Assembly (NCBI GenBank): GCA_009746045.1
Contig: RPFO01000240.1
Location: forward strand, 381,501-445,500
DNA length: 64,000 bases
Direction of reading: 5' to 3'
From: Mesostigma viride
Taxonomy: Eukaryota; Streptophyta; Mesostigmatophyceae; Mesostigmatales; Mesostigmataceae
A program made the translations under genes and the position numbers. The notes below the pieces were generated by a model. That model was not told where the DNA came from. It made no database searches and saw only the letters and a list, made by a program, of their open reading frames with translations. Shown here piece after piece: positions 8,533 to 47,819 of the stretch; within the stretch, counting starts at the first letter, position 1; each line of letters starts with the position of its first letter.

Positions 8533-10068
8533 ATGACACTTGAGCTCCCAAGAAAACCAGCATTTGATTGAAAACAATGAGTAGAGCCCCTGCCAAAGGC
8601 AGGTTTAAGTAGTCATCTCGTCTCCCTCGCATGCAGGAGCAAGAGCCCCCCGATCCACCCCAGTCCCTGGCGCCATTACCCTCCTCCCCCGCACTGTCGC
8701 CGCTCAGGAAACAAAACTTGATAGGATCACTGTTGCCCCAATAACAGTGAACAAAGAAAAGGAGAAGACCCCCCCCCCTCTTCCGAGCAGCCTCGAGGGT
8801 AGCCGCTTCCATAAAAGACCACAAAGTGGGGCGTGTCGCAACATCTCCTTCATGGCGACTCAGCCCGCACAAGGCTATAATAACCCCCTAAGGGGCCCGA
8901 CAATAAAAGGTTAGCGAATCCGCGGAGCCGCCTCAGCAAAATATTATTCCGGATAAAAACCCAGAAAATTCGCATTCCGACGCCACCAGGGTTTGAACCG
9001 CTACCTGCCGGGTGCTGAGCAGGGAGAGACGACAAGGCCAAACACTGCCACTGTCAGCCGAGACGCCTTTCCGATACTCGGTTCCTTTTGTGGGAATTTT
9101 GCAAATATATTTTCTTCCGGAACGCAAGAAATTAGCCGGCCGCGCGTCACCCTTATATCCCTCGCTGGCCCATAACAAAAAAGGGCCGCGCACCAAGCCG
9201 AAGGCAGCGCCATGCAGCGCCCTAGGCGGTGGGCCGCTGACTGACTACCAGCGCAGTCTCATGGAATCCAAATTAATCTATTGACCTTCGCACAGTTTCC
9301 GCATCAGCTGCGGACTTCTTAGTCGACATGATTGGCTCCGCTGCTGGAATTACCAGCAGCCGGGGCGGGGCGCCCAGCCCACTTTCTATGACCACCGAGA
9401 CGCTGCCCAGCAAGGTGCCAACCAGAACCACTTGGCACATTGGTAACGCGAAATTTCCGTTCCGTTCAAACCGCCCCTACCTGCCGTGAAGTCGCAAAGC
9501 CCGCGACTTCATAGCAGGCAAGGACGGGGTCTTTGCCTAATTTTCTTTAGCCCCGCCGCCATAGCAGCGAGGCCGCGCATACTGCTTCAGTGAGCACATT
9601 CAAAGAAACAATTACGGGTCACAACCCGCCGACCATGCTTATCAAGCCTACCGTCAAAATGGAAAACGGCAAAACCAGAAATATCCTAACGCTGACAATT
9701 TAATAATTCAGCCAGCCAGCTCATCTGTCACACGTCTGAGCTGTCAGGCCATGTGTACTCTTCGAATGCAACCCTGAACACACTACCCAACCAAGCAGCA
9801 CACCAATCAATTGGTGAGTGCTGGTTACATCAGATTTTATTACAGCTTTTTGACGCAACTTCCGTCAGCATTCAACACATGGCCGGCCGTTCAAACAAAC
9901 GGCGCCTGACTTACAAAAGGCAAAGCTAGTTGCCAGTAGGATTCCCCGGTAAACAACAAGCCGTCCCCATTCGTCTAACAAGCCTTTCTGCATGTACAGC
10001 CACAAGGTTGTGGCGGCCCTTTCTTTCCCGCATGCTGTTTAATAAACTATTTTCAGAGAAATCCGATT
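8530..10068. repeat. Long version (A'-C-B') of the structured non-coding repeat
   Basis: The copy consists of A' (8530-8651), a unique C part (8652-9602) and B' (9603-10068). C contains strong stem-loops: GCTGCTGG-aatta-CCAGCAGC near 9341, and CCTGC...GAAGTCGC-aaagccc-GCGACTTC...GCAGG at 9480-9518. On the minus strand it also has a Pol III B-box-like word GGTTCAAACCC near 8990. ORFs here are short and look random. B' joins directly onto the broken integrase of element III at about 10068, so the pair inserted into or replaced the rest of that element. Class unknown; a non-autonomous DNA or RNA-structured element is possible. Confidence 0.6.
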
Positions 10069-11394
10069 CTGCCCAACCTTACCCACCTTAGCTGATCCTG
10101 CAGCAGTTTGAGCTTTAGCTCTATGAGCTGATTGTAAAATGCGAACAGCTTCTGCTAGACTGCGTTTGGAAGGAGCAGCTAGGGGCTGAGCTATGTCCAC
10201 AAGTGAAGAGGTGATAGGTTGCTGATCACCTGTTTTGCCAATTTGACCCTCTGCTGCAGGGGGCCAAGCCTGCAGTGACTGCCTGCAATCATCAAGGGTG
10301 ACCTGGGTGTCACAGTGGTTGTGGCTATCACACTCACCAGTGGGTGTTCCAAACAACCACTCACTGGGCAACGCTGGGATGCCAGGCAATTGTACAGGGC
10401 TGTCGGCCAACAGCTCTTCCTCCTCTGCCACGTCTGACACAGTTGGAAAATACAATTTCATCCTGTGAGTTGAACACCTGTGAATCTTCCCCGTGTCATT
10501 GTGTTTAACCAGCACTGTCCTGCCAGTGGTGTTAAACTTTAGGATGGTGGCTGGCCCATGCCAGGTACCCACCTTGCCTAGTCCCGACTCCTTGTAGAAT
10601 AGGACCTGATCCCCTTCTCTGAAGGTGGGACGTGGATGCTTTGCATCCTTGACAGCCAACCTGCTAGCTGTATGTGCTCGCTGTGCGTTGTATAGGGCTA
10701 GTACCTCAGGTGGATAGATACCTGCATGCAATCCATCTGGTGTAATGACCACCCCTTGTGGGGTTTTCATGAGTGGCCTCCTGTTGAGGACTTGGCACAA
10801 CCTGGTGGACCACAGAGCTCTGTCAGCATATGACCCACTGTCAGCCAGCAGATTACCATCTTCCTTGGCTACAAGGGTTTAATGGACCTGATGGCCCTTT
10901 CAATGATGCCTTGCCTCTCATGATCTTCTAGCCCTGCCAGATCAATAGCCTCACACCCTGGTTCATTGGCAAGACACGTGAACTGTTGATCCAGTAACAA
11001 TGCCTCCACAGGGTAGTACCTGGCCTGAGCAATCAAGAGAGCCCTGAGCAACTGTGTCTTGTCCATTCCAGGTAATGGTTCAATGGTTGTGTACCTTGAC
11101 CATGCATCTTTAAGTGCCAAGTAAGATTGTCCTTTTATATGAAAGACATCTCCTACCACCCTGCCCTTGCACTGAGGTGGGGTAGCGACATGCCACTTAG
11201 GGGGTTTAGGTGCATTGAACTGGCAATGCTGGCAGTGGGATCTGACCACCTGGCAGGCACGTCTGAGTGCTGCCCCCCCTATTGCTGCTGCCACCACCTC
11301 TGCACTCACTTCATGCCCATAAAGGAAGTGCAACTGTAAAGCAAGCTCCTGAATACTGATATGAGCATCCTCTGAGGGGGATACTCTACATACC
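10069..11394 (-). pseudogene. Element III pol fragment: integrase (left piece)
   Basis: On the minus strand the H2C2 zinc region (LHFLYGHEVSAEVV and CQVVRSHCQHCQ) is followed by the integrase core with GDVFHIKG, LLLDQQF and GIIERAIRSIK supplying the D, D and E residues, then the integrase C-terminal part (FREGDQVLFYKESGLGKVG). One frame break lies near 10830. The frame ends at GSAKVGKVGQ where repeat B' begins, just before the point at which element IV has its protease; protease, RT and RNase H are lost. The upstream part of the same protein lies at 26227-27960, on the other side of the copia insertion. Confidence 0.85.
11390..11394. other. Target-site duplication ATACC (left) of the copia element
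   Basis: ATACC here equals ATACC at 26227-26231, immediately outside the two LTR ends. Confidence 0.9.
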
Positions 11395-12088
11395 TGTTTT
11401 GTTTTATGATCCTTCCTTGCAGATCACAGGTCAAGATCAAGGCTGAGGAAGTGAGAGACTGAGAGACAAAATGTTCACGCAGAAAACTGGCAGCTTGAGA
11501 TGCCCTTGCTGCCTTTGTTCATTTCATTATATAGGCAATTAGGTGGCAAAGGTAGAACTGCCACATGTCAAGCAAGGGTTGCAACACTTCTAGATTCCTA
11601 GAATATTTGTTGTGTGATTGCCAGATGGCATTTGCTGAAATACAACATAAGGAATGATTGCCATCTGTCAACATGCAAATAACCATCATATGGAACTGCC
11701 ATCTGTCAATAAACTAAGCAATGTGTTCTAGGCATTCGCCACATGTCCATGGAATAAAGTATCTAGAATCCTTGTCAGGAATCAAGAAACACTGACGTAA
11801 GATCTGACATGACAGTAGTCACTGTACCATGAATCTACCTCATGAACTAGCAACATGTTCAGGCCAGTTGGCATGCCAGTTGTCAGCACAATCGTCACGT
11901 CATATGCTGACACACTAGTCTACTTGGCAAGACCATAGTGCATATAACTTTGGAAGGCCGTGTCTCAGCCATTCGTAGTCCAAATCGAGTAGGAAAAAGT
12001 GCTACAAGTCCAGCTATCTATCTCTATCAAGCTGACTATATACAAGCACAATGTGGGCAGGGCAGGTGGATACAATAATATCCAGACA
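11395..12088 (-). repeat. 3' LTR of the copia element
   Basis: This 694-bp LTR reads TGTCTGGATA...AAACAAAACA on the minus strand, the canonical TG...CA ends. It matches the right LTR at 24432-26226 once the hAT insertion is removed. The minus-strand polypurine tract AAGGGGGG lies directly upstream (12089-12096). Confidence 0.95.
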
Positions 12089-12127: not shown

Positions 12128-12645
12128 TCACACAGGAATGCAGGAGCCGTCCTCGAAGCAGCTCGAAGCGTGGTCGCGGAAGTGCCTCCCGCCAGTGAAG
12201 CGGAGACCGAGGCCGTGGGTTGCCAGCAGGTAGCGGATGACCCGCTTGGCAGCCTGCATATCACCCAGCGTGGGTGATTGCATCTGTTGCGCTAGGCAGT
12301 TGACACCGAATGCCACGTCTGGCCGCGTCCATGTGGTGACGTAGATGAGCGCCCCCACTATTTGCTGGAACACCTCCCGTTGCGATTGGTCACACTGTCC
12401 CCCCTCGCTCAACACGGCACCCGGGACAACCGGGGTGGGAACACCACGACTCTCACCTTAGTAGCCCAAAGCGGGCAGCAATTTCTATGATGTAGGGAGA
12501 CTGGTGCAGGGCAAGGGAACGGGTGACGCTGTCAATAGAAAGACACACACCTAGAAACAACTGGAAGGGTGGTCCGAATCGGACAGCTGAAAACGTGTAC
12601 CAAGGCGAGAAACCCAGGCGGCTACCCAAGGGGCAGAGGGGCTGG
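12128..12645 (-). pseudogene. Copia element: C-terminal part of RT after the nested insertion
   Basis: The minus strand continues from 21028, past the TSD, with SPSAPWVAAWVSRLGTRFQL, then in another frame PPFQLFLGVCLSID, LHQSPYIIEIAARFGL and IVGALIYVTTWTRPDVAFGV, a standard copia thumb and connection. It ends after YLLATHGLGLRFTGG, 40 bp before the 3' LTR. The RNase H domain that should follow is therefore deleted. At least two frame breaks are present. Confidence 0.85.
12641..12645. other. Target-site duplication GCTGG (left) of element II
   Basis: GCTGG here equals GCTGG at 21028-21032. The copia RT frame is continuous across the site when element II and one copy are removed. Confidence 0.9.
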
Positions 12646-13299
12646 ATTTGCACAGCAACTCGTCAGCAGAGCTTGTGAGCTCCTGGTCCTTGCCGGCTGG
12701 AATGACCCAAGGCTGCTGGCTAGCAACCTTTATCCTCACACCAGGCCTACGACCCTCGATAGGCTCGCCACTCGTCGTGACGACCAAGGTTCGTGTGTGA
12801 AGACGCTCGTTGCCTCGTTGAGCCTCGAGCTATATGCAACCTCGTTCCATCCTTGTTCCTCGGTCATGAGCAACGCTGGGCAACGCTACATTGCCAGAGC
12901 CTCGTATCGCTGCCTTGCATCCTCGTTGCAGGCAGCATACAGGAATCTCTGGCTATCCTGTGTCTAGGACAGCACAGGACCTGCCACAGTCCTGCAAGGA
13001 CTTACATCCTTGCAGACCTGCTGGCTGGTTACTGGCTTCTACTAGCCACAGTACCGTTGAGCCCTCAGTACACTGTGTCCCAGTCACGTGAGAGTCCAGG
13101 CTAAGCCTGTGCAGGCACGGCCTGCCACGTGTCCTGTCCACTATGCCCTGAGTGTGCACCGCCCTCGCCCACCGGTCGGCAGTACTTCGGGACTTGATAA
13201 CTTTCTAGTCCCTTGTCTGTTCTAGGCGGTTGACACGGCGTTGGAAAGGTCTCCTCAACCTGCATCCATCTAGCACATTGGTGCCCCAATATGCTAACT
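12646..13299 (-). repeat. 3' LTR of element II
   Basis: It matches 20374-21027 base for base over nearly all of its 654 bp. The minus-strand start is AGTTAGC. Confidence 0.95.
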
Positions 13300-14232: not shown

Positions 14233-17200
14233 CTACTCTGGCCCTCCCCCCTTGGAGGCCATGAGCCCACGAAGCAAAGGGTATTGCAGCTCAGCCTTCT
14301 CCTCCAGCTTGGTGAGAGCATCTGCAGGGTTGTCCACGCCAGCCACATGTTCAATGTTAGCTAAGCAAGACATTTCCTTGAGCAACAAATAATCAAGGTC
14401 CCTGCTCCTGGCCAGCTGCCTGTGCACAAACTGCACCATGCCCATGCTGTCAGTTCTTACCAGTGTGTGCATCTGCAACCGACAGGAAGCCACTTGACAT
14501 AGCTGGTAAAATAGCTCCCTCAAGTAAAGAGCAGTATGAAGCCCTTCACAGATTGCCCTGCACTCAGCAATGTCACTGCTGGGAGTTACCCTGTTCTGCA
14601 ACCGACTGTACCAGCAGACCAGAGAGGACTGTTCCTGCACCAGGGATATTAATGCTGCTGCACGGCCCCTGACCTCTGTGACCTTCCTACTATCCATAGA
14701 ACTGTCCACATAGAGCATCATGTCAAAAGGCCTGTACAAATCCAAAGGACCCAGCATGAGAGGGGGAGACATGCGAACAGCCTCTACCACTCTCTCAGCA
14801 CCCACCTCAACCAGTTGGGAATCGGTCAACCGACTCAGTACCAACAGGTCAGGAGCACAAATGCTGGCCAGCCATGCCAACATACCTCGTATTGTTGCAC
14901 ATCTGGCCTGGGTGATGGGCTCCTGCAAGGCATCTATGATCTGCTGAGGATAATCCTTACCACCCTCCAGCTGGATGGACCATGTACCCTGCTGATGGAC
15001 CAAGGTCGCCTGCATTCCACAAAACACCATGGGCTCATTCTCAACCATGTACTGGATCTTACCCAGTTCAAACCGTTTCTGGATCCTGGCCAGAGTCAAC
15101 TCTTGCCAAGTGGGATGGCCCAGGAGATGCAGATCATCACCATGCAGGGAGGCAAACGCTGGCAGCCCCTCATAGCTACCCTGAAACAGACAAGGATCAA
15201 CTGGAGAGACTGAGAGACCACAGACAGACCTGAGGTACTTCTCCAAGCTCTTCCTCCAGATGATGGGACTCGATCTAAGGCCTTCACGCCTTTGAGAATC
15301 CTCAAATACCTCGTCTTCAGCTCTGCCCTCCACACTGCAGGCACCTTAACAAAGAAAGGGGGTATTGTGCGCCAAGTATCCTGTGCTTCCTGCTGATCAC
15401 CCTTAAGAAAAGCCCTCTTGAAATCTACCAACACAGAGCTATAGGGTATCCCCTTCTGCAGAAAAGACAAATAAATGCACAACAAAATCCTCCATGTATC
15501 ATGCAGCATCCCTGGTGTGTAAAGCTCCTCATCTGCTAACTGTCCAGTGCCATGGTACTCAGTCACAACTGGTCTAACATGTGGCACCTGCACGCCATCT
15601 ACTCCTTGAGCTTGAGGACAAACATCAATCTGAGCAGCTGGTGATCCTCAGGGAGGACATCCACAGGCTCTGCACAGTTGGCAACTATCCACTCATGCCC
15701 AGAAGCAACAAAGCCAAGAGTCCATGCCTTAGCCATCTTGGGGCTTTGCATCATCTCCACTAGCTTGCGCCAAGGTACAGGACTCGTTCCTGGGATCTGG
15801 TACCTCTGCACACCCAACTCACGTGGGTCAAACGTAGTAGGGAGGATCAGCAGGTCCCCAGCAATGGGCTCCTTTGTATCAGGACCCTCTGCCTCTAGAC
15901 CCCTCACAGCCCTTACAGCCACACTAAGACCCTGGGAGTAGCGATATCTCTGCAAGGGAAGGCGGCCCTGCCCTTCTAATGCTAGCTCCTCAGAGGATAT
16001 CCTCACCCCTGGTAAGCACAAGAAGTTCTGACCTAGAATGGCAGGCCCCTGATACCCTTCAACCACACTGAACGTGGTGGGCACCCCCAGGATAGGCACA
16101 CTCACTTCTCCCAAGATCTTCATGGACACATTCCCAGAGAAATCAGACACAGCTAGGCAGCTAGGGGATGACCACTGCAAGCCTGCAGCATCCTCTACCC
16201 TTAGAATGGACACCTGTGAGTTGGTATCCACTTCTAGTGCTGGTGCCCCACATGACCCCCATCCCGTGAGCTTAGATACCTTGGGATCACGCTTGCTGTT
16301 CTGCAGAGCTCGAATGATGTCCGCCATAAGCAGCCCCCTGGACTGTGGTGCAGCCCTGGCCACCTCTGGCCTTGTGACAGACGTCTCAGCAGACTCCTGC
16401 TCACCCTCATCCATCCAGGACAGACCATAATCCAAGCATGGTGGGTTAGCATCTGCTGCCTGGCTCTCATCCTGCTCATCTCCCTCCAAGGGAGGATCAG
16501 GGCCGTCTTCAGGCCAGATTGCAGTTGGCCTTCTCTCCTTGACGTGAGCCCAGGATAGCCTGTACACGTGCTTGGGATTACTCTCCAAAGCCACCAGACA
16601 AGAATGGTTAGCTTCCTCAACATGGGTTACCTGCCCATCTTGCCACTTGCCACGCTTGCCTGGTAATGACGGTTCCTTCCACATCCTGACCCTCAGTCCC
16701 ACCTGGGGCCTCAGCATTTTCCAACCCTTGTCCTTACGCCTCAATCTGGAAAACACCCTGTCTGCCTTCTTCAGGCAGGCTGCCACCACGTCCTGTGATA
16801 GCATACCAAACTGCAATGCCAGGGGAGAGACTGCCACACCATCATAGTAATAGGTTACCCTGTGGTTAAGCTGCTCCTCAATCCCCTTACACCAAGCTGC
16901 TTTCTCTAGAGCTGATGCCACAACAGGCACACTCCTAGCTGCTAGCACCACTGTTTTTACTTCACGTATAGATCTCTCTACAGCTCCCTGCTGCCCATGG
17001 GATTCCCTAGGGACCACTACCAACTTACAAGGAAGCTGGTCAGCCAGCTTGATCAAGCAGTCAAACTGCAAGTCAGCTTGCACCTTGGTGTACACCCCAA
17101 AGCCTGGCAACAAAGACTGGAGACCCATCAACAGCTGATGCTCCTGCATTCCAGGAAGAATGGTCAGCAACCTATATCTGCTAAACCTATCCACCCCCAC

Positions 17201-18568
17201 CAACAGATACATGCCCCTGATGTGTTGGATGTCCACCTGGATATCCCCCCGCTCTCTAGCAGGCTCTCTGGCATGGGACTGTGGGAGGCGAACAGCATTC
17301 TCCTGACAGACACAATTCTGAGCAGCTGCACTGCAGGCCTCTAGCAAAGGCTCCTTGCCAATCTTCCAAGCAAACATCTCTGCCTGCTTAGAGTGACCAA
17401 AGATATGGTGTAGAGTGTTTCCAGCCTGAGCATAGCTCAACCCCCTGTCAGCCTGGCTGCACAGAGAGGAACGTGACAAAGACTGTGTGCTTGGGATAGC
17501 ACGACCCACCTGCTGTTCTCTTGCTCCAGGGACCTCCTCCAAGGTAGCTCGGCTCCCAGAGCCAGCCCCGGTTCCCACAGAAGCTGCAGGTCCTTCCAGT
17601 CTGGCGGCTTGACTCCCAGAGTCAACCCCAACAACTGGAGACCCTGCACCTGCCACAGGCACAGGGAATTCCACTGCTGCAGCAGCGTTATTGCAATCAT
17701 TGAGTGGAAGCACCTCATCATTCCCAACCCCTTGCTGCTGCACAAGAGGGACACCCCCATTACTATGTACAACTGTTCGTCCCACTAGGGGTGATTGACT
17801 ATTTACAGGGGACAACATCAAGTCATGGCTTACCCCCTGGCCAGAGCCTGCTCCAGCAGACTTGGCCTGGTCTGGGCAGTCACGTCGCCAATGACCCGTC
17901 CTGCCACATCCAAAGCACTTGTCATCCTTCCCAGCAGCAGCCTTCTTCAGGCCACCCTGGTTCTGGCTGCTCTGACTGGCCTGGGTGCCCTGGCCCTGGC
18001 TCTTGCCTTGCCCTTGGCCACCCTTGTTCTGCTGACCACCCTGGTGACCACCAGCCTGCTGCTGACCCTTGCCTTTGGATCCCTGCTGCTGGCCCTTGCC
18101 ACCCTGGTTACCATTCTGCCTGCGCCTGTTAGCCCTCTGACGCCTACTAGGTCTGGTTTCTCCCTGAGCACCCTGCCCAGGGGCGTCACCATGGACCTGA
18201 TGAGCGGAGGCTGAAGGGGCACCAGTCACCTGGATTGCCTTGCAAGCAGCATTGTCAGATGGACGGATATTGAAAATAACCTTTTGCAAGGCTGGCCACG
18301 TCCCATCTGTCTGATCAGCAAACATCCTAGCTGCATTTCTCCCATCCACACTCAGCCCCATGCGATCCAGGAAGTAATCTGCCACTGCTCTGTCAGTCAG
18401 ATTGAAGCCATGCTTGGCCCCCTTCTCCCTGATGCGTGTGAGCCGCTGCAGCTCCTCAGCTATTGTGCCCTTGATCTCAAAGGTATCATAGCTGAGCTTA
18501 TAGTGATTAGTGAGGTTGAGTACCTTATCAGAAACTCCTGACGTAGGCCCTCTAGGAACTGAGACCAA
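14233..18568 (-). pseudogene. Element II pol: knuckle, integrase, protease, copia-type RT, RNase H
   Basis: Frame 18568-15599 (989 codons) has a Gln/Gly/Lys-rich tract, zinc knuckle CFGCGRTGHWRRDC (218-231), an integrase zinc region (LHHIFGH to NCVCQ, 386-421), integrase D446, D499 and E531 (HGQQGAVERSIREVK), and the integrase C-terminal part. Then comes a retropepsin-like domain (EVDTNSQVSIL with D781, and GPAILGQNF 841-849), followed by the RT start. After a frame break near 15598 the RT continues with LVDFKRAFLKG, and after another near 15300 with FASLHGDDLHLLG. RNase H follows (YVDSSMDSRK, SSDIAECRAI, RTDSMGMVQF, VAGVDNPADALTK). A second D-S-G word, VVGVDSGSQAA (312-322), lies before the integrase in low-complexity sequence without a matching ILG motif. 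Confidence 0.85.
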
Positions 18569-20350: not shown

Positions 20351-20373
20351 GAAAGCGTGGAAGCAATAGTACG

Positions 20374-21027
20374 ATTTGCACAGCAACTCGTCAGCAGAGC
20401 TTGTGAGCTCCTGGTCCTTGCCGGCTGGAATGACCCAAGGCTGCTGGCTAGCAACCTTTATCCTCACACCAGGCCTACGACCCTCGATAGGCTCGCCACT
20501 CGTCGTGACGACCAAGGTTCGTGTGTGAAGACGCTCGTTGCCTCGTTGAGCCTCGAGCTATATGCAACCTCGTTCCATCCTTGTTCCTCGGTCATGAGCA
20601 ACGCTGGGCAACGCTACATTGCCAGAGCCTCGTATCGCTGCCTTGCATCCTCGTTGCAGGCAGCATACAGGAATCTCTGGCTATCCTGTGTCTAGGACAG
20701 CACAGGACCTGCCACAGTCCTGCAAGGACTTACATCCTTGCAGACCTGCTGGCTGGTTACTGGCTTCTACTAGCCACAGTACCGTTGAGCCCTCAGTACA
20801 CTGTGTCCCAGTCACGTGAGAGTCCAGGCTAAGCCTGTGCAGGCACGGCCTGCCACGTGTCCTGTCCACTATGTCCTGAGTGTGCACCGCCCTCGCCCAC
20901 CGGTCGGCAGTACTTCGGGACTTGATAACTTTCTAGTCCCTTGTCTGTTCTAGGCGGTTGACACGGCGTTGGAAAGGTCTCCTCAACCTGCATCCATCTA
21001 GCACATTGGTGCCCCAATATGCTAACT
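20374..21027 (-). repeat. 5' LTR of element II
   Basis: This is a 654-bp copy of the 3' LTR. The downstream 23 bases to the gag ATG contain no TGG-starting primer site. Confidence 0.95.
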
Positions 21028-24000
21028 GCTGGCAACGATCATGTCATCAACATGTACAAACACAAAGCCCCTGGCACTGGGATAAAGGTAAAGACATGTG
21101 TCTGTAGCGCTAGGCACTGCACCATCCGACACGAGATGAGAACGGAAGGTGCGATGCCAATTGCGCGGAGCCTGACGTGTGCCATACAGGCTGCGATGAA
21201 GCTTCCATACAAGAAGCTCGCCAGAGGCGTCATACTCCTCATAGCCCAGGGGTGGACGTACATAGACATCCTCCTCTAAAGGAGCATACAAGAACGCAGT
21301 GCGGACGTCTAATTGATGCAGAGTATAGCCATGCGTGACTGCAAAAGCAAGAGCCAAACGCACTGTGGAGGAACGAACAGTGGGGCTAAAGATGTCCTGA
21401 AAATCAACACCCTCACGCTGGGCATAGCCCTTGCATACAAAACGTGCTTTCTCACGTCCATCCGACTTACGTGCATACACCCAACGGGAAGGAAGGGCCG
21501 AAGTGCCACGAGGAAGAGATGACCTACTCACCAAAGAAAAAACCTTGTGAGAACGAATAGAAGCCATCTCGCTATCCATGGCGGACTGCCACGCAGGAAG
21601 AGAACGAGCTTGTTGCCAAGACTTAGGGACGTCCAGGTCGACACTAGTGGCATATACATCCTCGACCACATCACGAATAGCAGCGTAATTTGGGCAAAAA
21701 CGGGCCCACTTAGGAGAAGCAAGACGTTGAGAAGAGGAGGTCCAACCATAGGCGCCATATGTGTCACTAGAGGGACAGTAGCCATCGCCAACATTTTCCT
21801 CAATCGTTGCAGCAGCTATCACCGAATCCGCCCCTGCCTGGTTGCTGGGCGCTGAAGATGAAGGTCGCTGCAGTGCGTGGATGGCTTGCTGCAAAGCCGT
21901 TGCACTCGAAATTTGAGGCGCAGGCGCAGGCGAGGGCGCAGGAATTCCTTGCGCAACTTGGTTGCCGGCGTCTGGCACCGCATCAGAAATTTCAGAGTCA
22001 GGAGCAGCACCCGGACCAGGATGCTCAGCGTTGCCACTGCCGTCTGCACCGGTGACAGTGCCCAGCTGTTGGCGAGCCTTGGCCCTGGTGACCGGACCAT
22101 CAGGTACCGAGTCAGGCACAGCAGTGACAGGCGGCAGCACTGCATGCTCAGTGGGTGCAGGCAAAGGTACCAGCGCCACGCCAGATTCCGAGGCAGACTC
22201 AGGTGCCGGCAGCTGGAAGTTGACATCTGGACTCGCGACGTGCAGGGGAGCAGAATTTGCTCGCCAAGTCTCATCGAATGACACATGGAGCCTGCGAATA
22301 ACGTCACGTGAGCCTGGGCGGAGAATCAGGTAAGCAGGCGACTCCAAGTCATAGCCCACAAAGATTCCAGCCTGGGCTTTGTCCTCCAGCTTGCCACGTG
22401 GCCCTTCTACACGAAAGTAGGCAGGGCAGCCGAAAATGCGCAAGTGCGACAGGTCGGCATCAACGCCTTGAAAAAGGCGATGAGGGCTAGCAGAGTCTGC
22501 ATTGGCCTCGCATGGCAGCCGATTGAGCAGGTAGACAGCACACGCAAAAGCTAGGGCCCAGAAAGTCTTGGGCAGGGTAGCATAATGCAGCATGCACAGT
22601 GTCATTCCCATCGCCAAACCCCACATGCGTTCCGCAACTCCGTTTTGCTGCGGACAGTAGGGGCTGGAAAATTCTTGGTGAACTCGATGGCGAGCACAGA
22701 GGGAGCGGAAGTCCTCGAAAAGAAATACTGCGTCATTGTCGGTCCTTAGAAGCACAGAACCGTCGTAGTAGGGCCTGATATCCCTTGACAGCAGTCGGTC
22801 GAAGTGCAGTGGCACCTCACTCTTCTGGCGCATAGGAAAAGACCAACGCCACCTTGTAGCGTCGTCAGTGATGCCCAGAATGTACTGGGAACCGCCCAGT
22901 GATGGCTGCATCGGCCCCATGATGTCCCCATGCAGCTTGGCACGAGGCACGGTCGAGCGTGGTTGCCCAGCAGCGAAGGAGCGTCGCCTAATCATGCCAG
23001 CAGGGCACGACGGGCAGCCTGGCGCACCTGGAGCCCGCATGGTAATGTTCGATGCAGGTATGGCCGCCAGCTTGCGAATGCGCTCAGCACCTGCATGTCC
23101 AAGTCGCCAGTGCCACAATAGTGCAGCAGGGTTGTCTGTGGTGTGGTGGGCAGCAGGGGTTGTCACAGTCTGTGATTCTTGCAAACCGTCGACGTTGTTC
23201 TGCACCTTGATAGGTACCTTGCTGCCTGCAAAGCATGCCACGCCCTGCAGTAGGTTCACCTCGTGTCCCTGCTGTTGCAGCTGGGCCACGGAAAGAAGCC
23301 TTGCACCCAGAGAGGGCACGTGCAGAGCATGAGGCAGATGCACCACCTTGTTGGCGACTCGTAGCTTGAGCGTCCCCGTCCCCACAGCCTTCAGCCGGCC
23401 TCCGGAGCCCTGGATTGCCAGGTTGGTTGGCTGAACCTTGATAAAGTCAGCCTCCTCAGGGCTCATGTGGCTGGATGCAGCAGAGTCCAGAATCCAGAAA
23501 GGTACGCCCGGCACTAGGCGCGTAGTTGCAAACGCGTAGTCCACGGGAAGCTCAGGAGCCTCCACCGTGCTGTTCGCTGTCGCAGCCTGCTTCTTCTTCT
23601 GGTTCTTGCGCTTTGGCCTCTGCTGGCCCTTCTTCCTGCTGAGATGTGGGTACTTGGTATAGCACGTCTCCTCCACATGTCCTTCCTTTCCGCAGAATGT
23701 GCAAGTCGGCCTCCCCGGCTTGGTTGGTTGGCCTGTGCTGTATGCTTGGCCTTGGGCAGCTGCTGGCTCAGGCTTGACCGTGGTGGTGGAGCGCGTCCCC
23801 ACAAGCAGGTCATCTGCTTCAAGCATGGCCTTCTTCACCTCCAGCAGCGACATGTCCTCATCGAACCTGGTTGAAACGAGGGCAGGCCTGTACGCATCAG
23901 GTAAACCACCTTTCAGCGCAGCGGCAAAATCATTGTCTGCCAACACCCCCCCCACATCCCTGTGCTCACTCCGGAAGCAGTTCTGAAGCGGTAAGATAGT

Positions 24001-26231: not shown

Positions 26232-27960
<1,729 letters not shown>

Positions 27961-30081: not shown

Positions 30082-30083
30082 GC

Positions 30084-31070
30084 TGTCGCGTCCGTGATCT
30101 ATCACGTCCGCAATTCAGATTTTCGCGTAATTCTGACGTCCGCAGCCTTGTGCGGGTTGCTATACCGCGGCTCGGTACTGACGCCGCAGATCTCAGTTGT
30201 ACTCACGCGCCAAGTCCGCTGAATTTGCTGACGGAACTTTTGGGCGGACCTGAATTTCACTGACATTCGTCACAAGGGCAGTTTGCCGAATGCTGGTGCA
30301 CAGCAAGCCGGCGAGGCACTGAGCAGATGTGCAATTTCAGGATTTCAACGTGGGACACCAGACACAAATGCAAGGAAGCCCCAGGCGGTGCCTGGCATAG
30401 CCGATAGATTTGCCCTTGTATATTTGTGCTCGCTTGACAGATAAAGCTTGAAGTTTAGCTTGTCGGAAATTAGACAGTGTTATGATTGGCTGATGTCTAA
30501 AGTGGCGCTAGTGGCGCCAGCCGCCAGGCTTGAGCTTTGAGCAGTATAGAAGGATGAGCAACGAACCATGGTGGTCGTTGTTCGTCCGTTTCTCTCCCTC
30601 ACAACTGGTTTGTTGTCTTCATGGGGTGAAATAGTTCGAGCAGCCCGGAGCAGCCCCCGTGAGTGGTTGCATGCAGTCAGTTGCCATGAGGATGGACTGA
30701 CGGATATGACAATGTATTGGTTTTGTTGAGAATGTGTGTAAGACTGAGAACGAGACAAGGGACAGGGCCTTCGGGCACCCTGGTCGTCGTTGGCAAGAAT
30801 GCCAGTAGGAACTAGGTCGGGAACACACGCGCATTGCCGCCACAAGGGGCCTGCAGTGGCGTCAACCAAGGGACCTCACAGCTGCTCTTATAACTACAAC
30901 ATTACAACTCGACACTCTTTGTAATTCGTCATGTATCTCATTGGAATTGCAAGGTCTTTTGGTTGCTTTGATGATAAAGCATGGTCTCAAGAATCGGCTG
31001 GTTGGGCCGGATTGCCTGTCATGAAGGTGGCGGTGCCGTTAAAGGACCGCACCTTTCATTCTCATTTTAA
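30084..31070. repeat. 0.99-kb direct repeat, copy L2
   Basis: Near-identical to L1. It interrupts or ends the LINE ORF at 31071, replacing the last residues with MRMKGAVL. Confidence 0.9.
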
Positions 31071-34223: not shown

Positions 34224-34628
34224 TAGATATATATATACGTCGGAGACGTTGGGGACTCAGTGTGACAATGTGAGGGATGCAGCAACGCCAGGGATCGGGC
34301 GTTCCTTGTCATTATTCACTCCATATGTGGGCACACATTATATGTCGTGGACACATCACTCACACGAGATCCCTAGGACAACTGGACTACGCTCAATTGT
34401 CCGCCACGTGTCCAGGTTCTAGAGGCTTCTAGACCTGGAGCAACGTTACTACGCACAACGTCCACTAGACTAGTTGCTAGCTACGTAACTTGCGTACACG
34501 TGTGTGCGTCGCGCCACAACCGGCGCTCGGCACCGTTATTCTGTCTCCGCCAGAATAACTCCGGTCACATTGTATGTTCCCCTGTGTGGCTCCGGCCACA
34601 AGTCAGCCTCGAGGTATCTCAGCTAACT
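34224..34628 (-). repeat. 3' LTR of element IV
   Basis: 405 bp, matching 41803-42207 at equal length. The minus strand begins AGTTAGCTGAG and ends TATATATATCTA. A TATA-like ACATATAATG lies in the middle. The LTR ends 22 bp before the first ATG of the LINE ORF at 34202. Confidence 0.9.
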
Positions 34629-35651
34629 CCCATTATGTTTTCTTTCAGATTGGAACATGCTCCAAGTCTGACCTACCAACCGTTGCAAGGCAACCAGAGC
34701 CCATACAGTCACAACTGGATTAGAAAAGGTACCCAGAAACGGACTATACTGATGCTGACTGCTGATTTAACCCTGCCAAGCACTACGGGGGTTCCTCCCC
34801 CTCAATAGTGGGGAAAACATAAATGAGGTACTGCGGCCATTCGTCACACAGGACGTCATATGAGTCACATGTCACATCATATAAGGAGTGCCCAGTTTCC
34901 ATCTTTGAAGGAGCGAATTGTCGTCATTTCCCTGGCATCTGTCACTGCAGATGGTAGAAAAAGGGGGGCTTGATTGCCACTTGTGGATGGAACCCCATGC
35001 AACATCCACTTCCCAAAAACCAATGGGATGACTCTAGTGAAACCAGAGGTCTTCCCCAGGTGCTTAGGACCTGATGTTTCGCCACTGCTGACCTGGGCCA
35101 GAGCAGCCAGATACCTGTGAGTGCCACATGGTGGTAAGCACAGGCAACTGACAAGTGGGAACTGGTTCTCCACTTGATTTGCACATGGCGAATGGGTGGA
35201 CTGCCCATCACCCTACCACAGGTCCTGGGACCAGATGGCAGCATAAGACACAACAGGCACGGTCACAGGACTAAGACTGTCACACGTTACATGCACATGC
35301 ACATGCACATGTACAAGGTAACCATGAACATGACCCAGCCACATAACAATGCCATGTACAAGTACTGTCACCATGACTGACACAATGACACACTTGTGAA
35401 GGATATGACAGCTCACCTCCCAAGAGATGAGCTAACGAAATTCCATGAGAGAGACAAAGTCAAAGAGACTCAATTTATTCACCATAAAACAGGGCTTACA
35501 AGGCATACAGGTTCAGCTCCTCCCCAGGAGCTAGTGCTGATGATAAGACACCCCGTGACCTGGGCCCGGGTCTGGGTACCCCTACCCCCTGACAGGGGTT
35601 GCCCCATAGTAGGGGTGGGGAGACTAGCCACCCTCCCTGGGGAGGGGTGGA
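34629..35651 (-). other. Element IV 3' UTR and polypurine tract
   Basis: The polypurine tract is at 34629-34646 (minus GAAAGAAAACATAATGGG). Other contents include G/C-rich inverted words near 35575-35650 (ccccctgacaggggttgcccc, split here only by spacing) and an acatgcacatgcacatg run near 35291. No gene is seen. Confidence 0.6.
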
Positions 35652-38600
35652 CTAGGTGTCTACCGGCGGGGGCAGGCTGGCCTGCTTGCCGTAGGGGTTC
35701 ATCATGTGATAGAGCAGTTGGTACTGCTCAGGTGCTAGCTGGGGCACCTTGGTCAACGCATCCGCGGCGTTGGCCTTGTCCGGCACATGATTGGTAGACT
35801 CCCAGTAGGTGCACTCCTGTTCAGGATCACCCAGTCCAAATCAGTATGCACAGCATAAGGGTTGTCAAGGAAACTGAGGAGAGATTGACTGTCGGTGTGC
35901 AAGTGAGCCACCACCCCAGCCTGACTGCCTGCTTGCTTCTGTAACCAAACCAGGACATGATTGAGATACCTGGCATGTAGCACAGCTGACACAACTGCCC
36001 TGCACTCAGCAGCATTGCTACTAACAGCTTTACGCCTATGTAGCCTGCTATACCATGAGATGAGTGACATGGGTTGGTCAGCATTTTGTACAAAAAATAA
36101 GCCAGCCTCCCTAGCCTGCAGTTGAGTAATCTGCCGTGATTCCATGGAACTGTCCATTATAGCCTGAATGTGAATGGGCTTAAAGAGTTCCAGGGAATGC
36201 AAGATAAGGGGTGGACCAGCCTGCAGGAGCTTGTTGATAGCCTTGTGGCCTACCTGCATAAGAACTGCATCATCAACCCTGCTGACTACAGCTAGGTGCG
36301 GTGCACAAGTAGAACACAACCACCCCAGCTTGCCCCTAATGGTGGGACAGTCACAAGGTTTGATTTTAGTCTGCAGTACCTCCTTACAACTGTGCATGTA
36401 ATCTGATGGAGAGTACATTGCACAGACCCACTGATCTGCTTGCTTCTGAAGCTGCAACATTGTGCCACAGAACTTAATAGCAATGGTGCCCAGCTCGAGC
36501 TGCTTGCCAATCTCAAAAGACTTAGACACGTTGGCAATAAAATCATCCACAGCCTGCCTAGGCCCAGCAATAAGCTGATCATCCCCATGCCACACAAACA
36601 TGATCATGCCATGAGGGTGAGGGACAACAAAGAAGCAAGGGTCTATGTCATCATACCGAGCACCTAGCTTCTCAAACACAGCTTGAGCTGACATTCTGAA
36701 AATTCTAGGAGCAGATTGCAGACCTTCCACTCCTATGTTGGCTTTCAGAAATGGTTGTGGGATATCCTTAGACCACACCTGAGGTGTGTTGACCACATAC
36801 ACCTTACCATGCCAAACTTGCTCAGCTATTTCAGGTGAACCTTTCAGAAAAGCACGTTTAATGTCAGTGGCTTTGCACACATAATCATCACCTTGATTGA
36901 TGTGCCCTAGAAAAACAGACAGCAAAATTTTAAGAGAAGTTTGCTGAATGCCAGGTGTATACAGGTCTGCCTCTGTCAAATCAGTGGATCCCTTAAACTC
37001 AGTCACACAAGGCCTAGCATGGAAAATGACAGAGCCATCTGCTGCTTGCTTGTGCTTGCACACGAACTTAAGTCGTAGGTGCTTGCTCCCGTTGGGCTTA
37101 CGCTCTAAGGGAGTGACTGGAGGTGTGTGGGTGGGACTACGTGGATCTGGAACCACCCATTCATCCATAGCCTTTCTAAAAGCTTCAACCCACTTAGTGA
37201 AACCTTCCTGAGTTTGACAGTCCTGGACAATCTGCTCATAGGAGAGGGGAGACATTTTTGCAACATCATATTTTCCCAATCCAAATGCTTTGGGGTGCAG
37301 TTTCTGACTGTGCACCAAATCTGCCACACGTGGCTCGTGCCCAGGTGCATACTTTGGTGCAACAAATTTGACAGTGGCTGGCTGTGTGTCAACCAAAGTC
37401 TGGAGTGGTACCTGAAAATGATCAAGTGACACCCCACCCAGGCCCTGTACCTCAAGCCTATCACAAGAGATGGTGACACCTGGGTAAGAAATAAATGGAT
37501 CACCCAACAAAGCATTTCCTGTGTATCCTTCCAGTACCTGAAAAGGTGTGGGGATACCAAGAATGTTTAAGGTAACCTGACCTTTAACAGTCAAGCTAGC
37601 CTGCCCAGAGAAATCAGCCACCCGTTGCCAAGGGGAAGGCTCTAACTCTAGGTGTGGTACAGCCAATGCACTGATGATGCTAACCTGAGCTTGGGTGTCA
37701 ACTGCGACTAGAGCTGGATTATTGTCGCTGTGACCTGCCCTACTCACTTTGGCTGACCCTGCAGCAGTGTGAGCTTTGGCTCTATGCGCTGCTTGCAGTA
37801 TGCGGACCGCTTCTGCTAGCCCATGTTTGGACACGGTAGGTATGGGTTGAGCTGGTACCGCTGAAGGTGTGCTGTCTTGCTGACCACCTTCTTGGTTAGT
37901 GCCCTCATTGACAGGTGGTCTAACCTGCTGTGGCTGGCTAGGCTCACTGAGGGTGACCTGGGGTGCACATGTGTTGTGGCTATCACACTCACCAGTGTGT
38001 GTTCCAAACAACCACTCACTGGGTACTCCAGATATACCAGGCAACTGTACTGAGCTGTCGACCATCAGCTCTTCCTCCTCTGCCACGTCTGACAGTGGAG
38101 TGTAATACAATTTAATCCTGTGAGGTGAGCACTTGTGCACATGTCCAGTGTCATTGTGTTTCACATGCACAGTCTTGCCTGTGCTGGAAAACTTGAGGAT
38201 AGTGGCTGGGCCTAACCATGTCCCAACCTTCCCTAGCCCTGACTCCTTATAGAAGAGAACTGTGTCCCCTTCCTTGAAGGAGGGGCGTGGATGCTTGGCA
38301 TCCTTGGCTGCCAATCTGCTGGCAGCGTGGGCACGCTGTGCATTGTACACAGCTAGTACCTCAGGTGGGTATATCCCAGCCTGTAACCCATCTGGTGTGA
38401 TAATACCATAGGGTGTCTGCAGGAGTGGTCGTCTATTGAGTATCTGGCATATCTTAGTAGCCCACAGTGCCCTATCAGCGTATGACCCACTGTCAGCTAA
38501 CAGGTTCTCACCTTCTTTGGCTACCAAGGTTTTGATAGACCTAATTGCCCTCTCAATGATACCTTGTCTCTCATGATCTTCTAGCCCAGCCAGGTCTATA

Positions 38601-39673
38601 GCTTCACAGCCCTCTGCTCCAGCAAGGCAACTAAATTGCTGATCTAACAGCAGTGCTTCTACTGGGTAGTACCTGGCTTGTGCTATTAATATAGCTCTGT
38701 GCAACTGAGACTTGTCCATACCAGGGAGAGGTTCTATTGCTGTGTACCTGGACCATGCGTCCTTTAAAGCCAGATAGGGCTGTCCCTTAATATGGAACAC
38801 ATCCCCGACCACTCTGCCCTTGCACTTAGGTGGTGTAGCTACATGCCACTTGGGTGGTTTAGGTGCATACATTTGGCAGTGCTGACAGTGTTTTCTGATC
38901 AGCTGACATGCCTTCCTGAGTGCCGTACCTCCCAATGCAGCTGCTACCACCTCTGCACATGTCTCATGACCATACAGTAAGTGCAGTTGCAATGCCAGCT
39001 CCTCATAACTGATGTTACTAAGAGCTTGGGTCATGACCCTGGACACCTTGGGTATCAAGGAGGTGAACCTGGGTTCACTGTCAGAGGTTTCTGTGTAATA
39101 CTTCAACACTTTGCCAACCTTGCTTACAGCCTTGACAGCTGAGCATGAAGGTGGAGAGTGAGAGGTAACAGAATTAACTTGACATCCTGTCAACATCCTC
39201 CCATCCTGTGTCCCTGCCTGGGCAGTGGAGCTGGATATTGGGTGGTGTAGGGGACACGACTCATCATGACACGTGTGAGGGTGTGAGGACTTACATTTAG
39301 GGGGCTGCCACGGATCCTTGGTGCACTTGGCGGGGTCCCCGTGAGGCGGTCCCAGGCACTTGTGGCAGAGCACCTCCAGGTCACCCAGGTGCTCCTTGTG
39401 TTTGTGGCACTTGTCCTTGCTGTGTCCACGACGCCCACAACGCACACATTTCACATCCTTCTTGGGGGTGGAGGACCCAGCCCCAGAAGACTTGTTAGTG
39501 TTCCCCCCTGGGGGGGATGACCTACCCTTCCCCTTCCCCTGCCCCTTGCCCTTGCCCTTGCCCTTGCCCTTGCCCTTGCCCTTGAGGCTCTTAACAAACT
39601 GACTCATAAGAGTCTTCACCTCCCCTAGCGTCACAGGACGCTGGTTTGGCCTTCCTGGCCTTACCCTCCTCAT
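35652..39673 (-). CDS. Element IV pol: knuckle, integrase, protease, copia-type RT, RNase H
   Basis: 1306 codons are open from 39673 to 35753. Domains in order: Lys-Gly tract (31-50); zinc knuckle C76-x2-C79-x4-H84-x4-C89; H2C2 zinc region (HLLYGH 231-236, CQHC 263-266); integrase D291, D344, E374 (HERQGIIERAIRSIK); integrase C-terminal part (FKEGDTVLFYKESGLGKVG); retropepsin-like domain 653-745 (LVAVDTQAQVSII with D659, flap region, ALLGDPF 721-727); RT motif A ATDIKRAFLKG (D937); RT box WHGDDQLIAG (1028-1037); RNase H D1174 (AIMDSSMES), E1223 (NAAECRAV) and D1261 (HTDSQSLL). A frame change near 35825 displaces the end; the other frame supplies HVPDKANAADALTK and stops near 35652. The protease after the integrase is the notable point. 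Spacing D344 to E374 (29 between) is shorter than the usual 35. Confidence 0.85.
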
Positions 39674-41789
39674 CTGACTCCTCCCCCCGGGCCCGCTTGA
39701 CAGCAGGGGGGGAAGAGGTAGAGGGGGGAGGGGCTGAGTCCTGACACAGTGGACCCAAGGCTAGCTTAACATAATCGAGAGCCTCTTTCATCGACTCCCA
39801 ATGGGTGGCCAAGCCTGTGGTGATCATGGCAAAGGTGTTACGATCAAGGTTAAGCTTCTCGAGCAGGGAATGTACAAGCCACTTGTGATCTAGCTTGCTA
39901 ACCTCGGGGTGGGCTTTCACTGCAAGTTCCCACTTCTTAATCTCTGCTACATAGTTCTGAGTTTCTACCTTATAGGTTTTCACCCAGTTAAACGCAGAGT
40001 ACATGTCAACAGTGGTGGGAGCAGACAGCAGGTCATGCAGATCACGCAGAAAATTCTCCCATGGCTCCCTACCCTGTGTGTCCTGCCACCTGGGATACCT
40101 TTGCTGATATATGGATACCAAGTGCTGGATGGAGGGATTGGATTGGTGGAAGAAATCACCCTGCATGAGTGCCCCAAACCAGTTCTTGATATTCAGCTCC
40201 TCCCTAGCGAGCTTGAGAGAGAGAAGAAGCAAGGTCTGCAGGGCGGGAAGGAGTGCCTCGCACATCCTCCTGGTCATCGGCTCGATCGAGGGTTGATCGA
40301 GTAGATGATAGATGACCGCACACAACAAGCTGGCGTGTTCAGCCAACCTGCCGTCCAGCCTGTCGCTGGCCACCCCTTGGATACCCTGGGCGCAGCGCTG
40401 GACTGCGCGCCAAAGGGTTGGCTCACTGAGTGAGACGACGTCATCCCCAGGGATGCGTGTCTCAGCTGTCTCCATGGCCACATCCTCCTCCCCTGGGGGA
40501 GATGGATGATCCCTTGCCACGGCCTGGGCCGTGGCAGGTCCCTTGCCGGCCCTGCCGGGGGCTTGGGACTGCGATGGGGGTGCCGAAGCACCCGCCTTCG
40601 CGGGTGGGTGGGTGGTGATGGCGTTGGTGTTGTCGGCTGATGCCGACGGTTCCGACGCAGCGGCGGGTGTGCCGTGGGGAGGCGGCTGGCGCTTGCCCTC
40701 CGCCCGCCTGGGGGTCGCTGCCGCTGTCGCTGTCGCTGCTGCTGTCGCTGTCGCTGTCGCTGCCACCACTGGAGAAGGCGGGGCGCCCACCGGTGCTGCA
40801 GTCTTGGATGCCGCGGCCGGCAGGGTCGCCGCCGACGCCGGGGGCGACACAGTTGCAGCCGCCTGCTGCGACGCAGTCGATGTCGCTGCCGAACCAGGGG
40901 ATGCCGTCGCAGGTCCCCAGCCGACTGGCACGACAGGTGGCGTCCTTGGCATCTCCTCGGCCGGCCGAGGTGGCTTGGCCACCACCGTGGCCGCTGCCAC
41001 CTGGCGAGCCTCCGAATACATGTCGAGAGCAGTTACACCTTGTCTCACGGCCAAGAAGTACAGCCGGATCAGAATCGCAACCTGGACATGCGAAAAACGG
41101 CAATGGACGTCCTCCGGGAGCTCGGCCGCCACCGCCTGAACCGCGAACTTGGTCAGGACGAAGCCGCCAGGGAGGGTACTCTGCTGGCGGAGTCGCCAGC
41201 CGTCGAAAGGCAAAAAGTTGGGTGCATTACGCACCGGGATCTTAAAGGGGAGCTGGCCCCAACCGTCAACATAAACCTCACCTGCGTCCTGGGACGCAGG
41301 GGTCGGGTTCGCGCCGAGGCTCATGCCTGCCAGCGCCCTCCCGACAGAGGTGTTGCCAGACGATGACCTCGTCTGGCCGGAGGTCACCTCTCTCCTAGGA
41401 GAGGGTGAAGCCTCCCCCTCCTCCATAGAGGAGGAATCCTCTTCCACCTGTCGCCCTGGGGCGGGTGGCATGAGGTGCGGGGCAACCTCGGACTCGTTGC
41501 GAGTCCCGGTGCCCCTGTTCCCCTGGGGGGCAGACTCCTCGGCATCGACAGCTTCACGCTGCCGGCGAGGGGTGTCCGCCACCACCATGCGGTAGGTGAC
41601 ATTTTCGTCACGCTCCCGCGGTGGGGAACTGCGAGGAGAAATTCTCCTCTGAGACGCCGTGAAAGGCAGTCTCGTGGTGATGGGGGGCTCCCGGTTAGCG
41701 GGAGGCCCGCCCCGACCGTTTCCTGCCCCTCCCCGCTGAAGGGTGGGGCGGACATTGTTGTTCTTAGCATCCGAGTTCTTCGGCGCCAT
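39591..41789 (-). CDS. Element IV gag
   Basis: 732 codons. The ATG (MAPKNSDAKNNN) lies 13 bp after the 5' LTR. A disordered, Arg/Pro-rich start is followed by a short folded part (YVDGWGQLPFKIPVRNAPNF, LPEDVHCRFSHVQVAILIRL), a long Ala/Thr/Pro linker, and the conserved capsid-like part (LAREELNIKNWFGALMQGDF, LDRNTFAMITTGLATHWES), then KRARGEESDEEG. It overlaps pol by 83 bp with pol in the +1 frame. In element III the same region is one frame, so the overlap may be either a simple indel or a +1 shift site. Confidence 0.85.
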   Translation of the reverse strand: MAPKNSDAKNNNVRPTLQRGGAGNGRGGPPANREPPITTRLPFTASQRRISPRSSPPRERDENVTYRMVVADTPRRQREAVDAEESAPQGNRGTGTRNESEVAPHLMPPAPGRQVEEDSSSMEEGEASPSPRREVTSGQTRSSSGNTSVGRALAGMSLGANPTPASQDAGEVYVDGWGQLPFKIPVRNAPNFLPFDGWRLRQQSTLPGGFVLTKFAVQAVAAELPEDVHCRFSHVQVAILIRLYFLAVRQGVTALDMYSEARQVAAATVVAKPPRPAEEMPRTPPVVPVGWGPATASPGSAATSTASQQAAATVSPPASAATLPAAASKTAAPVGAPPSPVVAATATATAAATATAAATPRRAEGKRQPPPHGTPAAASEPSASADNTNAITTHPPAKAGASAPPSQSQAPGRAGKGPATAQAVARDHPSPPGEEDVAMETAETRIPGDDVVSLSEPTLWRAVQRCAQGIQGVASDRLDGRLAEHASLLCAVIYHLLDQPSIEPMTRRMCEALLPALQTLLLLSLKLAREELNIKNWFGALMQGDFFHQSNPSIQHLVSIYQQRYPRWQDTQGREPWENFLRDLHDLLSAPTTVDMYSAFNWVKTYKVETQNYVAEIKKWELAVKAHPEVSKLDHKWLVHSLLEKLNLDRNTFAMITTGLATHWESMKEALDYVKLALGPLCQDSAPPPSTSSPPAVKRARGEESDEEGKARKAKPASCDARGGEDSYESVC

Positions 41790-41802
41790 GTCTAATCCAA
41801 GT

Positions 41803-42207
41803 TAGATATATATATACGTCGGAGACGTTGGGGACTCAGTGTGACAATGTGAGGGATGCAGCAACGCCAGGGATCGGGCGTTCCTTGTCATTATTCACTC
41901 CATATGTGGGCACACATTATATGTCGTGGACACATCACTCACACGAGATCCCTAGGACAACTGGACTACGCTCAATTGTCCGCCACGTGTCCAGGTTCTA
42001 GAGGCTTCTAGACCTGGAGCAACGTTACTACGCACAACGTCCACTAGACTAGTTGCTAGCTACGTAACTTGCGTACACGTGTGTGCGTCGCGCCACAACC
42101 GGCGCTCGGCACCGTTATTCTGTCTCCGCCAGAATAACTCCGGTCACATTGTATGTTCCCCTGTGTGGCTCCGGCCACAAGTCAGCCTCGAGGTATCTCA
42201 GCTAACT
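41803..42207 (-). repeat. 5' LTR of element IV
   Basis: 405 bp. Minus-strand start AGTTAGC at 42207. Only ACTTGGATTAGAC separates the LTR from the gag ATG. Confidence 0.9.
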
Positions 42208-45016: not shown

Positions 45017-45021
45017 GCCTT
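45017..45021. other. Target-site duplication GCCTT (left) of the LARD
   Basis: It equals 51599-51603. The two sides together restore a continuous cttgtgcctgcctttgccc stretch of the K/G-type minisatellite. Confidence 0.8.
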
Positions 45022-45717
45022 TTACATCCCGGCTGACTGCCGGCTGCGAAAGATCTACACCTGATTCATAATAGACCATTATGAACAGTGGTCGCTATAT
45101 TAATCTACGCAATCCACACCATGACTAGTATGGACGATAACTAATCTAACATAATTAACCTGGCGCAGTTGACCCTGGCCGGTTCAAGCCCGAGGTGTTA
45201 CAACCTCGTGGGAAGCTGGGCGAAATGCCTCCCGAGGTACATGTAGCATTTACGACAGGAATTCAGGACCATGCATTTCCTAAACCCGCGGGCGTGACCC
45301 AGCCGGAAAGAGAAAGAGATTAACTCAATTCATTTCATTCATTCCGGGGGTGACAATGGTGAACGTTCCCACACACTATTAACCTTGGCGGCTCACGGCG
45401 TTGCCAAGCAGTGCCAAGCAGCACTGCTTGGACGCATGGTCAACCGAGATCTCTAGGAGGCGCTACGGTTCACACGAATTGACCGTACGACCCAATACGA
45501 CTTACACTAGGTCCACGCACATTGACATGCTGCGCACCTACAGATAAACCAAAGTACCGAAAGTACTACAAAACCACTGAATAGCAAGTACAACGCCGTA
45601 TGAACCGGCTGTACGAATATGCCTAAATAGTCGAACAATGAGACTACGGCTATTAAACATTGTTGCGCCGAACTGTCCACTAAAGGAACCTAATTAAATA
45701 GGCTTGGACGCAACACT
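45022..45717 (-). repeat. 3' LTR of the LARD
   Basis: 696 bp, matching 50905-51598 (694 bp) with about five differences. On the minus strand it begins AGTGTTGCGTCC and ends GGGATGTAA. Confidence 0.95.
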
Positions 45718-47795: not shown

Positions 47796-47819
47796 ATCGG
47801 AGCGCCCTCGCGACGGAAA

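Follow-up and report, generated by a model that had tools for sequence, protein, structure and literature searches.

A copia-related LTR retrotransposon lineage in Mesostigma viride with a retropepsin-like domain between integrase and reverse transcriptase

Element IV is a long terminal repeat (LTR) retrotransposon in a 64,000-nucleotide stretch of the Mesostigma viride genome (GenBank assembly GCA_009746045.1, contig RPFO01000240.1, positions 381,501 to 445,500 of the forward strand), hereafter the window, within which all positions are counted. LTR elements make up 27.9% of this genome according to an excerpt of a published genome analysis (PMC6947507). Element IV is flanked by two identical repeats of 405 bp (34224-34628 and 41803-42207), and other copies of its family place the true LTR length at 408 bp, with 3 bp more at the 3' end. 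A primer-binding-site-like TGGATTAGAC follows the 5' LTR of the family and the gag ATG comes immediately next (LTR end 42202-42207; also L071-L074). The gag and pol open reading frames (ORFs) overlap at 39594-39760 in different frames, and the related copies L042 and L100 run from gag to ribonuclease H (RNase H, RH) in a single frame. Within pol, an integrase (IN) is followed by a linker, a retropepsin-like protease domain (PR; D of DTQA at residue 659, ALLGDPF at 721) and then the reverse transcriptase (RT) and RNase H. Element II of the window has the same arrangement (D of DTNS at pol residue 781, AILG at 843), and an earlier sequence-only reading of the window had placed all four motifs correctly. 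It had also claimed that element III breaks right before this domain, and the match of III to IV does cover pol residues 209-649 and end at 10066, just short of PR (653-750). The window copy of II is frameshifted in RT, with some other II copies being open throughout; II and IV are 36-42% identical in PR (depending on the alignment), 33-35% in RT-RH and 26% over the whole of pol. Copia elements have the order PR-IN-RT-RH, and gypsy and BEL elements PR-RT-RH-IN. The II/IV lineage departs from the copia order, and it departs from that of Ty3/gypsy and BEL/Pao in having IN before RT.

This arrangement recurs well beyond the window. Across the assembly (439.9 Mb, 2243 contigs), a search with the PR of IV, in which the best 150 of 4496 candidates were scored so that counts are lower bounds, gave 56 matches at 97-100% and 94 at 73-78% identity. 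The corresponding search with the PR of II (best 150 of 4477 candidates) gave matches that were all at 99-100% and distinct from the 150 of IV, and a search with the public protein P0009 gave at least 297 matches (best 150 of 4919 candidates scored), mainly in groups at 98-99% and 70-71%. The PR domain is present in hundreds of copies in the genome. IN precedes PR and PR precedes RT in 41 of 44 loci, comprising the first 8 IV matches, the first 30 II matches and 6 hand-picked from the 73-78% group, while the remaining three (L001, L002 and L023) have no IN match; all three sets of motifs lie in one open frame in 15 of the first 38. Ten later loci, six from the P0009 search and four hand-picked, include seven with IN, PR and RT in one frame and three (L092, L093 and L095) with PR and RT only. 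Single open frames with this order reach 1507 aa in L042, 1380 in L098, 1528 in L100 and 1214 in P0002, a protein entry without organism label, and domain spacing is nearly constant across six polyproteins. The order that the sequence-only reading had proposed, IN-PR-RT-RH, is found within the genome in six groups of sequences, and also in P0002, in which Pfam places rve, gag-asp_proteas and RVT_2 in that sequence, all below cut-off.

Controls from the same genome read as expected. The canonical copia of the window has its Pol_BBD match, which includes ILDSAASSHM, ahead of IN at pol residues 154-230, and all five copia loci fetched (chosen by hand to cover five score levels and to have long open frames, and representing four families as L088 and L091 are near-copies) have PR-IN-RT in one frame. 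All ten loci found through PF13975 carry DTGA, and L062 and L070, two gypsy loci among them that were read at full length, have the order PR-RT. As these controls read normally, the order and the DT[Q/N] motif of the lineage cannot be put down to the genetic code or to the reading, and the sequence-only reading was right to take the canonical copia as a safeguard against a reading artefact. It might still be suspected that chimeric or nested copies, misassembly or misread frames create a false order, given a window crowded with nested elements and a large plant survey that, in the portion of the paper drawn on here, discarded elements whose domains came in an unexpected order, regarding them as probable mispredictions (Neumann et al., 2019; PMC6317226). 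We consider this scarcely credible in view of the spacing shared by many loci and groups, the single open frames of 1380-1528 aa, the separate protein P0002, and the purifying selection and target duplications described below. The lineage has the order Gag-IN-PR-RT-RNaseH, and this order is neither an artefact nor a chimera.

A conserved protease upstream of IN would have spoken against this order, and none was recognised. At a Pfam threshold of E<=10, the IV gag gave no matches, IV pol residues 1-213 gave a zinc knuckle and one TrAA12 match (E 0.087) and II pol residues 1-374 gave zinc knuckles only; no protease was among them. D[S/T]G strings precede IN in one of the eight stretches scanned, namely DSGS at II residue 316, and are absent upstream of IN in IV gag, IV pol, P0002, L042, L096, L098 and L100. 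The II string recurs in near-identical II copies and was rejected as an upstream protease, lying about 72 residues before IN in low-complexity sequence. A DSGS in IV loci (LLADSGSYADR) sits downstream of the IN catalytic core.

The lineage is under selection and has moved recently. Ratios of nonsynonymous to synonymous substitution (dN/dS) were computed among four copies of IV-related groups (six pairs, some with saturated synonymous divergence). In five of the six pairs these were 0.08-0.10 for PR, 0.08-0.09 for RT and 0.39-0.72 for the IN-PR linker; the near-identical pair L041-L042 gave 0.04, 0.02 and 0.06, respectively. The PR-RT connection gave 0.06-0.14 in four of the six pairs, and the value could not be computed in the other two. 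IN, PR, RT and RH are under purifying selection, with PR constrained like RT. Eight IV-type copies were sampled at their expected ends and four followed to both ends; all four have 5-bp target duplications of the copia type (GGCTT, CATTG, CCGCT and GAACT; for the window copies of IV and II see Table 1) and LTR ends AGTTAG..CTAACT, rather than the usual, though not strictly required, TG..CA found in the canonical copia of the window. These ends suggest that the IV-family integrase works on CT and not on CA. A single difference in 655 positions separates the two LTRs of II. Insertions are recent, and the lineage is numerous and recently active.

Table 1. Positions in the window of element IV, its relatives and the copia control (residues refer to the pol of each element)
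Feature	Position	Strand	Remarks
Element IV	34224-42207	minus	LTR retrotransposon, Gag-IN-PR-RT-RNaseH
IV 5' LTR	41800..42207	minus	408 bp, AGTTAG..CTAACT; repeat plus 3-bp extension from other copies
IV 3' LTR	34224..34628	minus	without last 3 bp; no matching target duplication
IV gag ORF	39591..41789	minus	732 aa; no Pfam match
IV pol ORF	35753..39673	minus	1306 aa; frame +1 (or -2) relative to gag
IV CCHC zinc knuckle	39407..39448	minus	residues 76-89; motif scan
IV integrase	38144..38992	minus	about 228-510; HHCC (zinc site) followed by D, D, E; unmatched in Pfam
IV retropepsin-like domain	37424..37717	minus	653-750; DTQA, flap-like DFSG, ALLG
IV reverse transcriptase	36374..37108	minus	856-1100; RVT_2; KRAFLKG, HGDD
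IV RNase H region	35804..36286	minus	motifs alone (DSSM, AECRA, TDS); no Pfam match
Element II	12645-21027	minus	domain order as in IV
II 5' LTR	20373..21027	minus
II 3' LTR	12645..13299	minus	99.85% identical to 5' LTR; target duplication 4-5 bp
II pol ORF, first part	15599..18568	minus	989 aa; CCHC 217-232, IN, PR
II integrase	16499..17440	minus	about 377-690; weak Pfam rve
II retropepsin-like domain	15953..16246	minus	775-872; DTNS, DFSG, AILG; no Pfam match of its own
II RT and RNase H	14236..15647	minus	two more open segments, 15099-15647 and 14236-15345
Element III integrase	10066..11423	minus	interrupted right before PR
Element III gag part	26259..27920	minus	with CCHC
Canonical copia pol	21022..23955	minus	control: PR region 154-230, IN, RT 804-976

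The domain between IN and RT resembles a retropepsin, and the second outcome that would have refuted the sequence-only reading, a middle domain lacking an aspartic protease fold, did not emerge either. The profile search that the sequence-only reading had proposed matched Pfam gag-asp_proteas (PF13975) to six of eight PR copies, below cut-off (best E 0.036), in addition to RVT_2 in IV. DFSG and LG motifs are kept in all seven representatives, and the second hydrophobic-Gly motif (LLG or ILG) stands 64 residues from the start of the first in all six polyproteins. In the structure prediction, retropepsins alone appear among the matches listed for a low-confidence domain model (50/50 VIA-align entries and 50/50 Foldseek rows), and residue 20 of the model, an Asp, aligns to residue 25 of the human immunodeficiency virus (HIV) protease in many of them. 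Two points temper this. The predicted fold comes from a weak model; an AlphaFold model from two sequences gave no usable fold (pLDDT, the predicted local confidence score, 34.5), and sequence searches of the PDB with the domain returned nothing relevant. Secondly, the domain lacks the D-T/S-G of retropepsins (clan AA, family A2), as its motif is DT[Q/N] and never DTG in 7/7 representatives, Asp and Thr being kept and Gly lost. A scan of fetched loci that left the third residue free and required [AS]QVS after the motif found it in 54, as DTNS in 30, DTQA in 24 and DTG in none.

This loss of Gly, in 7/7 representatives and 54/54 loci, is what would be expected if the domain had retained its retropepsin fold but now served IN or RT in dimerisation or folding, with the polyprotein being processed by a protease of the host or of another element, for which the copia and gypsy elements abundant in the genome are potential donors. 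We judge this distinctly unlikely, however, because Asp, Thr, DFSG and LG are retained in all seven representatives, PR is as constrained as RT and no other protease was recognised in the element. The canonical copia elements of the genome also depart from DTG, with DSA in four of five loci and DTG in one, from which it follows that the third position of the motif tolerates some change.

As to the affinities of the lineage, the HHCC and D, D, E residues of a retroviral-type integrase are present in all six proteins. When these are aligned with three copia integrases, H, H, C, C, the first D and E are invariant and the second D fails to line up in one column; Pfam rve matches II weakly (E 0.012) and IV not at all. 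The RT is of the Ty1/copia type, that of IV matching RVT_2 (PF07727) above cut-off (E 6.6e-10) and that of P0002 below it (E 0.014). In RT trees all sequences with the IN-PR-RT order form one clade (100/100), separated from copia by a branch of 3.8-4.0 and from gypsy by one of 5.1-6.1, and split into subclades of II with P0002 (89/81) and of IV, III, V and VI (97/98). Both subclades have HGDD in RT, against VHVDD in the copia loci of this genome. The placement of the clade beside copia is not fixed, since the trees are unrooted, with copia sampled from this genome alone, and copia is not resolved as a single group. The apparent kinship with copia rests mainly on RVT_2.

An RT of copia type would fit an element whose own copia protease was shifted downstream by a rearrangement inside pol, which requires no outside donor. 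That origin seems somewhat unlikely to us, in that PR is nearer to gypsy-type profiles: it is matched by gag-asp_proteas and not by Pol_BBD, and profile comparison with hhalign gave E 0.008 to gypsy PR against 0.23 to copia PR, both weak, the gypsy set being five sequences of which L061 may not be gypsy. Taken together, we favour a distinct copia-related lineage with the order Gag-IN-PR-RT-RNaseH, in which PR has been moved or replaced and perhaps forms a unit with RT, at a probability of about 0.8. A bolder proposal, possible if rather doubtful, is a separate lineage at superfamily level that lost its copia PR, gained a gypsy-type retropepsin between IN and RT, fused PR to RT, uses a DT[Q/N] site outside the D-T/S-G rule and has an IN handling AG..CT ends.

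For the copia-related lineage that we favour, the usual cycle may be envisaged, in which a Gag-Pol polyprotein is packed into a particle before reverse transcription and integration. The predicted protease between IN and RT would act as a dimer and cut the polyprotein with the Asp of its DT[Q/N] motif. IN and PR would be parted by a loose linker, with PR, connection and RT constrained together. Because of this pattern of constraint a mature PR-RT unit is possible, and the mature enzyme may resemble that of foamy viruses in being PR-RT(-RH), IN having been cut away at its N-terminal end. PR was probably placed there once, before the two subclades split, perhaps as a replacement from a gypsy-type source, its origin being the weakest step of this scheme.

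Relatives outside the genome are few. A first protein search found none, a second found one fused M. viride gene model, and scans of viral contigs and of genome contigs found no others. A profile search returned eight proteins, five of which were labelled Prorocentrum, Lingulodinium or Alexandrium. A wide distribution in dinoflagellates was rejected owing to the near-identity of P0003, P0006 and P0009 to M. viride elements: P0003 is 100% identical to locus L098 (291/291 residues), P0006 100% to L042 (124/124 residues), and P0009 99% to M. viride copies over residues 72-200, while a separate match covers its residues 1-75 at 97%. These three EukProt entries likely reflect cross-contamination of public transcriptomes or mislabelling, as their sequences suggest. 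The best matches among fetched loci were at 76% for P0005 and 72% for P0007, and the dinoflagellate-labelled matches look like contamination for the most part. P0003 and P0005 were included under those labels in the first RT tree and dropped from the second after this check. Among proteins named Mesvir1, P0004 is 97% identical to L041 over 339 residues, and P0001 and P0008 are 71-72% identical to L042.

The remainder of the window is rich in other repeats. Element II lies within the canonical copia, and the copia within element III. The copia (11390-26231) has TG..CA ends, a 5-bp duplication ATACC and a 1.1-kb insert in one LTR. Where III breaks, an LTR-bounded element begins (8067-10068) that cuts III and resembles a terminal-repeat retrotransposon in miniature; its 466-bp repeats are 100% identical and lie about 1.1 kb apart, its longest open frame has 118 codons, and no target duplication was seen for it. 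In the gag of III, 163 TTG copies at 26575-27063 encode a long poly-Asn run; such runs vary in length across copies L039-L044, and L040 has a GQGQ-rich stretch. Two 0.7-kb direct repeats (99%) flank 5.2 kb at 45020-51602, with a longest open frame of 157 codons, probably a non-autonomous LTR element. A 1050-bp inverted repeat (99.3%) at 3470-6536 has a non-LTR reverse transcriptase fragment on each arm, and a 991-bp direct repeat (99.3%) at 28581-31174 lies beside a non-LTR retrotransposon.

We know of no described superfamily with the order IN-PR-RT-RH, and a search of the open-licence literature, with Repbase and subscription papers outside it, found no description of this order. The sequence-only reading had gone further in naming a candidate for an undescribed system; the order stands as one not found described, but its bearer is better seen as a lineage related to copia whose pol order differs, and not as a wholly new system. 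With Ty1/copia the lineage shares an RVT_2-type RT, an HHCC/DDE integrase ahead of RT, RNase H in last place and 5-bp target duplications, and it differs in the position of PR after IN, the DT[Q/N] motif and LTR ends of AG..CT rather than TG..CA. The Ty3/gypsy elements of this genome have a PR of the same gag-asp_proteas type, but with PR-RT order, an intact DTGA and an RT outside the clade. Foamy viruses have the order PR-RT-RH-IN, with a retroviral RT and IN last, whereas IN comes first here. The primary paper on another comparable element, Gmr1, is said to be that of Goodwin and Poulter in 2002. Gmr1 also departs from the pol order of its own superfamily, being, in the part of Llorens et al. 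(2009) drawn on, a Ty3/gypsy lineage with copia-like IN order (PMC2774666), whereas the present lineage has a copia-like RT and PR behind IN. Foamy virus Pol is processed into PR-RT-RH and IN only, according to an excerpt of the source, so that PR directly adjoins RT as it does here, in a fusion that is only inferred for our lineage (PMC7828637). TARE1 of tomato, as described in an excerpt of its report, is likewise a copia-like element that makes 5-bp target duplications and whose LTR ends are not TG..CA, but these are TA..CA by one mutation, and the excerpt names int, rt and rh and mentions no moved protease (PMC3701649).

Superfamilies of LTR retrotransposons are told apart by domain order, which this lineage shows to be less fixed than the classification assumes. 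Annotation pipelines may hide elements of such order. If the DT[Q/N] protease is active, the motif rule of retropepsins is broken; if it is dead, the question becomes how the polyprotein gets cut.

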